Origin: an uncultured cyanobacterium
GTDB lineage: Bacteria; Cyanobacteriota; Cyanobacteriia; PCC-6307; Cyanobiaceae
DNA length: 41,709 bases
Assembly: GCA_903934745.1 (NCBI GenBank)
Contig: CAIZOZ010000364.1
Span: 1-41,709 of the forward strand
Direction of reading: 5' to 3'
Every line of letters starts with the position of its first letter. Position 1 is the stretch's first letter. The position numbers and the translations under genes were made by a program. Shown here in pieces: positions 21,678 through 26,133 of this stretch. The notes below the pieces were generated by a model, which did no database searches, was not told where the DNA came from, and saw only the letters and a program-made list of their open reading frames with translations.

Positions 21678-22448
21678 TCAAGCCTCGTGCCTGGCAGTTG
21701 CGGCGATCGTTTTGGCTGCTGTTCTGGCTGGGGTTCTGGCCGCTGGCCAGGCGACGATGGCGTCCTCGGCCACAACCCAGAGCTCGGCGGGCTGCGGGTA
21801 GGCATGGCCGCCCGTGAGGCGGCCGAAGGAGGGCAGCACCAACTGCTGGCGGCGCCGATCCAGGGCGAAGCAAGGCAAGCGCAGGCGATCACCGCCGCCA
21901 GCGAGCTGCACCACCGGATGCAAATGGCCACAGACATTGAGCAGGCCCGGGCGGGGATCGGGAGCATGGCTGAGCCAGAGGGGGCCGCTCGCCTGGGCTG
22001 GCTCCTGGGGCAGGCCCTCATGCCACTGACCACGGTCGTGGTTGCCACCGATCAACCGCAGGGGACAGCCAAGCAACGCCGGCAATGCCGCCAGCTTCTG
22101 CCGCAGGCTGCCGGTGAGACCCAGGCGGTCGTGGACCAGATCACCGAGCACGATCACCTGCTGCGGTCGCCACTGGTGGGCAAGCTCCAGCAGAGCATTA
22201 AGGGTTTGGGCGTCGCCGTCACTGGGCAGGGGAATGCCGTGAGCCTGGAAACTTTCGGCCTTGCCCAAATGCAGATCTGCCAGTAGCAGCAAGGACTGGG
22301 CTGGATCCCAGAGGGCCCGGGCGGCCAGCAGCTCCAGTCGATGGCCTTGCCAGACCAAGGCCGCCCGACTGGCGGGCGCGGAGCCTGGGGGTAGGGCCGA
22401 AGACTCGTTGGCAGGCTCTGGGGAAGGCTGCGTGACAGCAGGGGCCAT
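21678..22448 (-). CDS. pdeM: Ligase-associated DNA damage response endonuclease PdeM
   Basis: LLLADLHLGKAESFQAHGIPLPSDGDAQTLNALL, VIVLGDLVHDR, LIGGNHDRGQW, VCGHLHPVVQ, LPCFALDRRRQQLVLPSFGRLTGG. Confidence 0.88.
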   Translation of the reverse strand: MAPAVTQPSPEPANESSALPPGSAPASRAALVWQGHRLELLAARALWDPAQSLLLLADLHLGKAESFQAHGIPLPSDGDAQTLNALLELAHQWRPQQVIVLGDLVHDRLGLTGSLRQKLAALPALLGCPLRLIGGNHDRGQWHEGLPQEPAQASGPLWLSHAPDPRPGLLNVCGHLHPVVQLAGGGDRLRLPCFALDRRRQQLVLPSFGRLTGGHAYPQPAELWVVAEDAIVAWPAARTPARTAAKTIAATARHEA

Positions 22449-23062
22449 CAGCGCTGGCCCATCGCCAGCTGGTAGGCGGGCCGTTGCCGGGTGGCTTCGA
22501 TGCTGGCCTGCACGTGGGGGAAGGGGGCCAGATCCACCTGGGGGCAGAACAGGGGCAGGTAGGCCAGATAGGACTGGATGGCGCAATCGGCCGCTCCCCA
22601 GCCCGCCGCGGCGTCAGATCCGCAGCCGCCCAGCAGTGAAGGGCCAGCGCTGAGCAAGGAATCGAGGGTGGTCAGTTGCCGCTCCAGGTCCTCCGGTTTG
22701 GCGGCGGCCTGGATCAGGGCGGGCCCGAAACTGGCATTGGCGAACAACAGCCACTGCAGCGTCAACGAACGCCGAGCCGCACCAGCAGCCCCGACAAATT
22801 CCTGGCCGTGCTGTTCGGCCAGATGCTGGAGAATCGCGCCGCTTTCAAAGAGTTTCAGAGGCTCCCCATCCGGCCCGGCCAGGCTGTCGTCCACCAGGGC
22901 CGGCACTTTGCCGAAGGGATTCATCGCCAGGAAGGCTGGTTGCCGATGCTCGCCGGCGCCGAGATCGAGGCTGATCCACTGGTAGGCGATCCCCTTCTCC
23001 TCGAGATACCAGCGAACCATCGAGGCCCGACTGCGGGCGGCGCCATAGAGGGTCAGGCTCAT
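22448..23062 (-). CDS. Glutathione S-transferase family protein
   Basis: MSLTLYGAARSRASMVRWYLEEKGIAYQWISLDL..QPAFLAMNPFGKVPALVDD..LFESGAILQHLAEQ. Confidence 0.92.
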   Translation of the reverse strand: MSLTLYGAARSRASMVRWYLEEKGIAYQWISLDLGAGEHRQPAFLAMNPFGKVPALVDDSLAGPDGEPLKLFESGAILQHLAEQHGQEFVGAAGAARRSLTLQWLLFANASFGPALIQAAAKPEDLERQLTTLDSLLSAGPSLLGGCGSDAAAGWGAADCAIQSYLAYLPLFCPQVDLAPFPHVQASIEATRQRPAYQLAMGQR

Positions 23063-23125: not shown

Positions 23126-25327
23126 GTGACATCGGCTTCCCAGGACTGCGGGCCGGCCCACGAGCAGCAGCTTGAGCCCTTGGTCGGGCCGCGCAGCGAG
23201 CCGGCGGCCGACTCGGCGGCCTGTCTGCTGCGCCTCGCCCCCCATCTGCTGGGCCGCGCCCGCCGCGGCATCGTCGGCAGCAGCCGCTATGCCCAGAACC
23301 TGCGGGAGTCGATTCGCCGGGCCGCCGCTGCCGTCGATGGCAGGGCGGTGCTGATCAGCGGTGAGCCCGGCCTGGAAAAAGACAACATCGCCGCCTTGAT
23401 CCATTTTGGTTCTTCAGCCCGGAAGCAGCTGCTGGTGCGCCTCAATGCCGCCCTGCTGCGGCCTGATGGCGCCGAATTATTCGCCAGCGGCGCCGGCGAG
23501 CTGTCCTTGCTGGCCTGTCTCGGAGCCGGCTCGCTGTTGATCGATCAGGTGGATCTGGCCCCGGCGGCGTTGCGACCGCTGCTGCTGCAACTGGCCCGCG
23601 ATGGCAGCTGGAGTGATCCGGATCAACCGGGCCGACGCTTTGTTTTCCCGGGGCGCGTCTTTTTCACGGCGGAGAAAGCGCTGCCGGATCTGGACGGCTG
23701 CTGCCAGCTGATTCGGGTGCCGCCGCTGCGGGTGCGCCGCCAGGACCTGGGGGAATGGCTGCGCTACGGCGTACGCCAGAAGGCCCTCAGCCTGGGCTGG
23801 AGCCGGCCACCCAGCGTCAGTGAGGAGCTGGTCAAGCGGCTGCAGACCTACGACTTCCCCGGCAATCTGCGCGAGTTGTCGCAGCTGATTGAGCGGGCCC
23901 TGCGGCAGTGCGGCGCCGGCCGTTATCCCGAGATGCTGCCCGACGACGTGTTCTGGACCGGCCGGCGCGGACCGCAACGGACCCGCTTCGACCTCTGGCG
24001 CTGGAAACCACAACTGCGCGACTGGATGCGCTCCCCCCGGCTCTGGAACGGCCTGCTGTTCGGCCTGGTGAGCTGGGTGTTCGTGCTGGTGAATCTCTGG
24101 CTCTGGCTCGGCCCCCAGGATCGCCAGCACAACGGCGCCCTGAATCTGTTTTGGGCCTGGTGGTGGCCGTTGATCCTGCTGGCCTATCCCCTGGTGGGCC
24201 GGCTCTGGTGTTCCTTTTGTCCGTTCATGGTGTGGGGCGAGATCAGCCAGCGGCTGGCGCGACGCCTGGGCTATCAGCCCCAGCGCTGGCCCCGCGGTGA
24301 AACCGATCGCTGGGCCGCGCCAGCCCTGGCCGCTGGTTTCGCCGCGATCCTGATCTGGGAGGAGCTGGGGGATCTGGTCAACACCGCCTGGCTGAGCAGC
24401 TGCCTGCTGCTGCTGATCACCGCCGGTGCGGTGATCGGTTCCCTGCGCTTCGAGAAACGCTTCTGGTGCCGGTATCTCTGCCCGATCGGCGGCATGAATG
24501 GGCTGTTCGCCAAGCTCGCGATCAGCGAACTGCGGGCCCAGGTGGGCACCTGCAGCGGCAGTTGCAGCAGTTACGCCTGCTTCAAGGGCGGGCCGGCAGC
24601 AGGGGAAGGGCTGGCCACGGAGGGTTGCCCGCTCGGCACCCATCCCGCCCATCTCGATGACAACCGCAACTGCGTGCTCTGTCTCACCTGTGCCCAGGCC
24701 TGTCCGCATCGCTCCGTGCAGTTGCGGCTGCGGCCGCCCGCCGCCGATCTGCAACGCGAGATGGCACCGCCGGCGGGGGAGGCGGGATTGATCCTGGTGC
24801 TAGCCGGTGGCCTCAGCCTGCAGCACTGGAACCGATTGCTGGGCTGGTTGCCCCTGGCGCCGGACTCCCTGCAGAGCGGTTTCCTGCTGCCGCGCCTGGC
24901 CTTCGCCATGCTGGCCCTGGCCCTGCCGGCGGTCCTATGGCTGCTGCTGCAGTGGACCGGACGGTGGCAAGACTGGCTCGGTCGTGCTGCGGCCGGCCGC
25001 GCCTGGCTGCTGCTTTACGCCCTGCTGCCGCTGCTCTGGGCGCTGATGCTGGCCCAGCACCTGCCGCTGGGCATGGCGGAAGCGGGGCAACTGCTGCCGG
25101 TGGCGCTCGCACCGCTGGGGTCCGGCTCGCTGCTGAACGGCTGGCAATGGAGTGCGGACGGTCATGTGATCGCCTTCTGCCAGAGCCTGGTGGTGGCGCT
25201 CGGGGTGCTCGCTTCGATCGTGCTGTTGCGCCGTCTGCTGCAACTCGAGTTCCGCCACTGGCTCTGGCTCAGTGGCTTGCCCCTGCTGCTGGGAGCCGGC
25301 GGGCGCTGGCTGGTGGCGGCGTTCTGA
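23126..25327 (+). CDS. Fusion of a degenerate NtrC-like (sigma-54 activator type) AAA+ domain and a NapH/NosR-like multi-TM 4Fe-4S protein
   Basis: AAA-like: AVLISGEPGLEKDNIAALIHFGS, GSLLIDQVDLAPAALRPLLLQLARDG, IRVPPLRVRRQDL, YDFPGNLRELSQLIERAL. Fe-S/membrane: RLWCSFCPFMVWGEI, CRYLCPIGGMNGLFAK, CVLCLTCAQACPHRSV plus several TM helices. GTG start at 23126 is a guess. Confidence 0.85.
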   Translation: MTSASQDCGPAHEQQLEPLVGPRSEPAADSAACLLRLAPHLLGRARRGIVGSSRYAQNLRESIRRAAAAVDGRAVLISGEPGLEKDNIAALIHFGSSARKQLLVRLNAALLRPDGAELFASGAGELSLLACLGAGSLLIDQVDLAPAALRPLLLQLARDGSWSDPDQPGRRFVFPGRVFFTAEKALPDLDGCCQLIRVPPLRVRRQDLGEWLRYGVRQKALSLGWSRPPSVSEELVKRLQTYDFPGNLRELSQLIERALRQCGAGRYPEMLPDDVFWTGRRGPQRTRFDLWRWKPQLRDWMRSPRLWNGLLFGLVSWVFVLVNLWLWLGPQDRQHNGALNLFWAWWWPLILLAYPLVGRLWCSFCPFMVWGEISQRLARRLGYQPQRWPRGETDRWAAPALAAGFAAILIWEELGDLVNTAWLSSCLLLLITAGAVIGSLRFEKRFWCRYLCPIGGMNGLFAKLAISELRAQVGTCSGSCSSYACFKGGPAAGEGLATEGCPLGTHPAHLDDNRNCVLCLTCAQACPHRSVQLRLRPPAADLQREMAPPAGEAGLILVLAGGLSLQHWNRLLGWLPLAPDSLQSGFLLPRLAFAMLALALPAVLWLLLQWTGRWQDWLGRAAAGRAWLLLYALLPLLWALMLAQHLPLGMAEAGQLLPVALAPLGSGSLLNGWQWSADGHVIAFCQSLVVALGVLASIVLLRRLLQLEFRHWLWLSGLPLLLGAGGRWLVAAF

Positions 25328-25370: not shown

Positions 25371-26024
25371 TCAACGGGCGTTGTCGCAGGCCCGCTGCAG
25401 ATCGCTTGCGGCGTAGAGAGCCACGGGGGCTTGCGGGGGGCTCTGCTGCAGGCGCTGCAGCTTGGTGAGGTAGTGGGCGGCGCCGATCTGGTTGCCGAGC
25501 TCAATGCGGCTGACGCCCTGGCTGCGCTGCCAACGGTTGCAGGCGGCCAGGCCGGTGTCCGCCCGCAGGCTGGCCGGGGCCAGCGCCCCAAGCAGGGCAC
25601 TCAGCAGGAGCAGCAGGGCTGGCCAGCACCCGGCCGCCAGCCTCGGCCCATGCCGCACCTGGTGGGGCTGGCCGAGATAGACCCAGGCCAAGCGGCCATC
25701 GAGCAGCACCAAGCGCTGGCGCTGGTAGAGCCGCGGCACCCCTTCGAGCCGATCCAGCCGCTCCAGGGTTTCGGCCTCAACGGCAAACAGTTCGCCCGAC
25801 ACCGGAACCGTCTCGGGATCCGTTGCAGATCCTGTCTCGGACGGGGCCGCGGCGATGGCCATCGGGAAGGGACCGAGGTCATGAAGGCTGAGCCCAGGGG
25901 CCTGGGCTTCCCCTTCAAAGCGCGCCGTGGCGAGCAGGTGGTGATTGGACTGGCCGCGCTTGAGGCTGCCGTAGACGAACACCAGATCCAGGGTTGGAGC
26001 TCCGCGGCCAGGGTGCTCCTCCAT
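25371..26024 (-). CDS. Gamma-glutamylcyclotransferase family protein with a C-terminal membrane/extension region
   Basis: LDLVFVYGSLKRGQSNHHLLATARFEGEAQAPGLSLHDLGPFPMAI..GELFAVEAETLERLDRLEGVPRLYQRQRL; then hydrophobic CWPALLLLLSALLGALAPASL. Start may be 26057. Confidence 0.8.
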   Translation of the reverse strand: MEEHPGRGAPTLDLVFVYGSLKRGQSNHHLLATARFEGEAQAPGLSLHDLGPFPMAIAAAPSETGSATDPETVPVSGELFAVEAETLERLDRLEGVPRLYQRQRLVLLDGRLAWVYLGQPHQVRHGPRLAAGCWPALLLLLSALLGALAPASLRADTGLAACNRWQRSQGVSRIELGNQIGAAHYLTKLQRLQQSPPQAPVALYAASDLQRACDNAR

Positions 26025-26049
26025 AATCCCGTGCTGATGAGGCCCCGAG

Positions 26050-26133
26050 ATGACCATTGCCCTGTTGATCGCCCTCGCTGTTTCGATGGGGCTGATGGTG
26101 ACGATCGTGCGCCGGCTCGAGAAAGCCTCCTGA
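26050..26133 (+). CDS. Candidate single-TM small protein, 27 aa (MTIALLIALAVSMGLMVTIVRRLEKAS)
   Basis: ATG to TGA frame; one hydrophobic helix followed by RR/K-rich end; sits between the GGCT start and the helicase 3' end. Only weak SD (AGG at -8 region). Confidence 0.45.
   Translation: MTIALLIALAVSMGLMVTIVRRLEKAS

Follow-up and report, generated by a model that had tools for sequence, protein, structure and literature searches.

A real gene lies at 23126-25327 of the window, the whole 41,709-nucleotide stretch of uncultured cyanobacterial DNA analysed here, and its product is a cyanobacterial membrane iron-sulfur protein joined to a dead-looking AAA+ ATPase domain. The family to which it belongs is widespread in cyanobacteria and very probably already described, as FesM, rather than an oddity of one lineage, and the window protein appears to be an alpha-cyanobacterial variant of FesM that has no N-terminal cNMP-like domain ('alpha' denotes the window's own family, and 'beta' the other families of Cyanobacteriia). 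A sequence-only reading of this DNA had proposed a pseudo-ATPase fused to a NapH-like module in an organism without sigma-54; that description stands, while the widespread FesM family and the apparent loss of the cNMP-like domain had escaped it.

The open frame (forward strand, as are all features described within it) translates into 733 amino acids with no internal stop. The frame stays open upstream as far as 22676, and the GTG at 23126 is the likely start, in agreement with homology. Pfam places Sigma54_activat at residues 49-114, AAA_lid_14 at 202-265 and two Fer4_5 stretches above their cut-offs, and together with similarity to NCBIfam families and the structure match described below this bears out the initial view that a single open reading frame combines an NtrC-type AAA+ domain with a polytopic 4Fe-4S membrane module. 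The neighbouring genes lie outside the system: a divergent glutathione S-transferase (GST)-like gene (22448-23062, reverse strand), in conserved synteny, and a convergent gamma-glutamylcyclotransferase-like (GGACT) gene (25371-26081, reverse strand). Because the adjoining genes are divergent and convergent to it, the FesM-type gene is probably its own transcription unit. Within the clade, genes for a CDP-alcohol phosphatidyltransferase-like protein, a CBS protein, a metallophosphatase and the GST are conserved before it, and GGACT and an Lhr-like helicase frame, so named from a reading of its letters, after it. This conserved synteny with unrelated genes includes no operon partner pointing to a pathway.

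The AAA+ core (residues 45-195; 23258-23710) is NtrC-type but catalytically degenerate, as identified by Pfam, phmmer and Foldseek, and is followed by a lid (residues 196-272; 23711-23941; AAA_lid_14) that contains PPLRVRRQDL and DFPGNLREL. An AlphaFold model of the window protein, built with 42 sequences (mean pLDDT 77, pTM 0.62), matches NtrX (E=2.8e-10) and NtrC1 (3m0e, E=8.5e-10, TM-score 0.73 on target length) in the PDB. All 50 Foldseek matches listed are AAA+ activators, so the search is uninformative on the membrane half. Among NCBIfam families, the AAA part is nearest to NtrX, PspF and NorR, all far under the family cut-offs. The altered Walker A, GEPGLEKDN (residues 79-87; 23360-23386), was read as such from the letters and appears likewise in the orthologue alignment, with the refinement that its Lys is kept. 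An acidic residue after this Lys is common in NtrC-type proteins, so only the changes of T to L and G to E are abnormal. The altered Walker B, LLIDQVD (residues 137-143; 23534-23554), lacks the catalytic Glu, as had also been noticed, and keeps its Asp, which is Asn in most beta orthologues; across the alignment the motif is mostly LL(I/L)D(Q/K/N) in alpha and LxLNN in beta sequences. The reported absence of a GAFTGA loop and arginine-finger segment is matched in an alignment of an orthologue with FleQ, where gaps occupy the place of the loop and FREDLYYRL is replaced by NCQDLVHHI, and the sensor II-like GNLREL and the PPLRxR motif are still present. An intact ATP site or GAFTGA loop, either of which would have refuted the initial view, was not found, and the predicted structure has the AAA+ fold of bEBPs.

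The window protein therefore shares the AAA+ core and lid fold with bEBPs (NtrC, NtrX, PspF, FleQ) but differs from them in the missing Walker B Glu, GAFTGA, arginine-finger segment, DNA-binding domain and sigma-54 partner. A search of the window's own genome with Sigma54_DBD (PF04552) gave no match, while the positive controls (E. coli, B. subtilis, C. vibrioides and a Bacteroides) all matched, in keeping with the original remark that cyanobacteria lack sigma-54 and that a canonical activator role is not expected. A search for rpoN in a class sample of 145 genomes returned two matches, each in a short frame and covering 33-38 positions of the profile, which we take as chance or fragments. A working sigma-54 activator would account for the Sigma54_activat match over its cut-off and for the fold match to bEBPs; with no rpoN in the genome and with GAFTGA, arginine-finger segment and HTH all lacking, we rule this role out and assign it almost no probability. 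Judged from its motifs, the AAA+ domain seems to have lost hydrolysis and sigma-54 contact and to have been retained for regulation or oligomerisation, and its conservation without catalysis points to oligomerisation or nucleotide sensing.

Degenerate motifs, and the splitting of the gene into two frames in four genomes (G025, locus L054; G046; G144; G156), are also what decay into a pseudogene or a chimeric assembly would produce. The splits may be frameshifts, sequencing errors or true splits; in G046 the frame breaks around residue 330, not far from where the AAA and membrane parts meet. Against decay or misassembly, the fusion recurs in 202 of 291 genomes of the class Cyanobacteriia with the window protein as query, and a full-length copy 97% identical to it is present in another assembly. 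Twelve cysteines (362, 365, 448, 452, 476, 480, 485, 501, 516, 519, 522 and 526) are present without exception in all 117 distinct sequences, and dN/dS of the AAA and lid part is 0.06-0.13 in close pairs, similar to that of the Fe-S core and lower than that of the C-terminal helices (the most distant pair, L133/L137, was saturated and left out). We accordingly rule out chimera and decay, which retain hardly any credence, and the joining of the two halves by assembly error, raised at the outset as a possible refutation, does not apply to a fusion found in hundreds of genomes. The P-loop itself is conserved in its altered form: all nine residues of GEPGLEKDN recur unchanged in 86 of 95 alpha and in 15 of 20 beta orthologues, and seven others carry GEPGLGKDN. 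This conservation and the low dN/dS indicate, at the level of sequence, that the altered ATP site is a maintained state. The 97% identical copy, with the same neighbours, lies in L065 (CALPNT020000003.1), titled as a Bifidobacterium breve MAG, a title that is probably wrong given the identity and the shared neighbours.

The C-terminal part of the protein (residues 304-730; 24035-25315) is a polytopic membrane module with approximately nine TM helices predicted from the model and topology. It holds a CxxCP motif (C362-P366; 24209-24223) and a CxxxCP motif (C448-P453; 24467-24484), both on the predicted cytosolic side, four likely 4Fe-4S ligands (C476, C480, C485 and C501; 24551-24628) and a ferredoxin motif CxxCxxCxxxC(P) (residues 516-526, with P at 527; 24671-24703), for which Fer4 scores below cut-off and whose cysteines are among the invariant set. 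The two Fer4_5 stretches, the predicted helices and the twelve cysteines agree with the earlier description of C-terminal TM helices with CxxC(P) motifs and a ferredoxin-type cluster motif. Judged by helix order and positive charges, every cysteine loop lies on the side of the AAA domain, predicted to be the cytosol or stroma; the loop at 471-518 has low confidence in the AlphaFold model. Two 4Fe-4S clusters would fit in the 476-526 loop, with possibly a further centre at the membrane-edge CxxCP and CxxxCP motifs. The Fe-S core, including these motifs and the ferredoxin-type cysteines, resembles that of the NapH/MauN family (TIGR02163; E=2e-10 over residues 350-533), albeit at 40.6 bits against a cut-off of 213.05, and the window protein differs in its fusion to an AAA+ domain and in an extra bundle of helices at the C-terminal end. 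A PDB sequence search with the membrane half gave weak ferredoxin-motif matches and nothing else.

Genome searches with the window protein found matches in 81 of 200 genomes of the order and 62 of 146 genomes of a phylum sample. The family is usually single-copy and full-length only in the class Cyanobacteriia, part of the cyanobacteria have no FesM-type gene, and the matches listed from outside the class are weak, partial and mostly to the Fe-S part. A Deinococcus ficus plasmid gene (L064:7977-9335) is a stand-alone Fe-S membrane module with no AAA domain, and the 308-aa gene upstream of it has no Pfam match.

Reportedly, FesM was described by Xu, Liu and Zhao in 2005 (Plant Physiol 138:1586) as a membrane iron-sulfur protein needed for cyclic electron flow around PSI in Synechococcus (Picosynechococcus) sp. 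PCC 7002. A relative of that strain was picked by means of a 7,930 bp stretch of the PCC 7002 plasmid pAQ7, which is found at 96% identity in genome G347; by this sequence match G347 is a close relative, not shown to be the strain itself. Its one family member is 840 aa long, carries cNMP, AAA+, lid and Fer4_5 domains and shares 44% identity with the window protein across 685 residues; both Fer4_5 matches of the entire genome fall in this single gene. As the only Fer4_5 gene there, it is the best candidate, short of proof, for the 'membrane iron-sulfur protein'. FesM of PCC 7002 is itself reported to have an architecture of this kind, with an N-terminal cNMP-binding-like domain, and from this and the elimination in G347 we infer that the window's family is FesM. 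The order of AAA+ followed by Fe-S is common to the window protein and to FesM as represented by this relative, whereas Walker B reads DQ in the window protein instead of NK/NN. A literature search by domain description for an AAA/4Fe-4S/cNMP protein found nothing relevant, and PMC12265555 was a false match ('FeSMo').

An N-terminal cNMP_binding domain is present in beta orthologues and in a paralogue, and is absent from the window protein and the alpha clade, whose sequences start at a conserved linker, an (L)RPYLV-like motif immediately ahead of the AAA core. Identity to the beta orthologues differs by region: 41% over the AAA core, 64% over the Fe-S core and 30% over the C-terminal helices. 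A maximum-likelihood tree puts alpha sequences and the paralogue each to one side of a 100/100 branch, and although the root is not fixed, loss of the domain in alpha is the simplest reading because both the paralogue and the beta proteins have it. Judged by eye on an alignment, the beta domain (N-terminal ~120 aa; L041-L061, L150) has no conserved phosphate-binding Arg, which makes cAMP binding doubtful.

The paralogue, here called FesM2, occurs on cyanobacterial plasmids and chromosomes, and two of its carriers belong to the window's own family. It has the three-part architecture of the beta form and differs in a near-canonical GxxGxGKT P-loop and in forming a separate clade (support 100/100). 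It lies directly upstream of cysK in five of six loci examined (L062:6930-10621, L063:6942-10579, L145:7688-11354, L146:6942-10616 and L148:6815-10557; L147 is the exception). Copies of petC and psbA are present as well in the two loci that lie on plasmids, and the L063 locus has DsrE and rhodanese genes. This context suggests a tie of FesM2 to sulfide or cysteine.

The window gene is probably, though far from certainly, an alpha FesM orthologue whose product acts as an Fe-S carrier from ferredoxin or PSI to plastoquinone, with a regulatory or oligomerising pseudo-AAA+ domain. Under such a mechanism, the cytosolic (stromal) NapH/NosR-like module would accept electrons from the PSI acceptor side or from reduced ferredoxin and hand them on toward the plastoquinone pool of the membrane, which would support cyclic electron flow, and the bEBP-derived AAA+ domain would serve as a regulatory or oligomerising part without hydrolysis. 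In beta proteins a cNMP-like domain precedes it, which the window lineage appears to have lost. NapH-type proteins move electrons in the reverse direction to such delivery. Both the path of the electrons and the function of the AAA domain are proposals. A paper citing the FesM work states that PCC 7002 without FesM is impaired in cyclic electron transfer around PSI and in mixotrophic growth on glycerol (PMC9003380), a role with which the early guess of an 'electron-transfer regulator' agrees. A 2026 review, absent from the literature matches for FesM, considers cyanobacterial cyclic electron transport most likely exclusive to NDH-1, with other pathways possible (PMC13331136), and the requirement for FesM in cyclic electron flow could be indirect.

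Such an indirect effect would follow if the protein served maturation or assembly, as CcoG does and as NosR does for nitrous oxide reductase, with its Fe-S module supplying electrons while the cofactors of a thylakoid complex are put together. The early reading had likewise offered an assembly factor, or a scaffold, as possible roles. Fer4_5-type polyferredoxins include assembly proteins, the distant relatives outside Cyanobacteriia match mostly the Fe-S part alone, and the window gene is in no operon with a quinone oxidoreductase; set against this, there is no co-localised client gene and the reported mutant phenotype is one of cyclic electron flow and photoheterotrophy, and we regard an assembly role as unlikely, if still deserving of some weight. 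A membrane-bound redox sensor, signalling through the AAA domain to another protein with no bulk electron flux, would suit the domain order of sensor, AAA+ and Fe-S, the conservation of a non-catalytic AAA domain, and a conserved Lys and sensor II-like motif that could still bind nucleotide. The protein has no DNA-binding or partner domain, and the class sample has no sigma-54 except for the two short fragment matches, which leaves a sensor distinctly improbable.

Returning to the Fe-S carrier, a more specific, speculative and rather improbable version casts the bEBP-type AAA+ ring as a non-hydrolysing, nucleotide-sensing gate on ferredoxin-to-plastoquinone transfer, which in alpha-cyanobacteria would operate without cNMP-like input. 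Cyclic electron flow would then be governed by the level of adenylates.

It is an open question whether a ferredoxin-plastoquinone route exists in cyanobacteria alongside NDH-1 (PMC13331136), and a class-wide, usually single-copy membrane Fe-S protein, linked in 2005 to cyclic electron flow and with few citations since (two citing papers in the library searched), offers a direct handle on it. The family is very probably a known one; the parts worth attention are the shortened alpha form, a natural deletion of a putative sensor domain, and the conserved pseudo-ATPase domain, an obvious place to test whether adenylates control electron flow.
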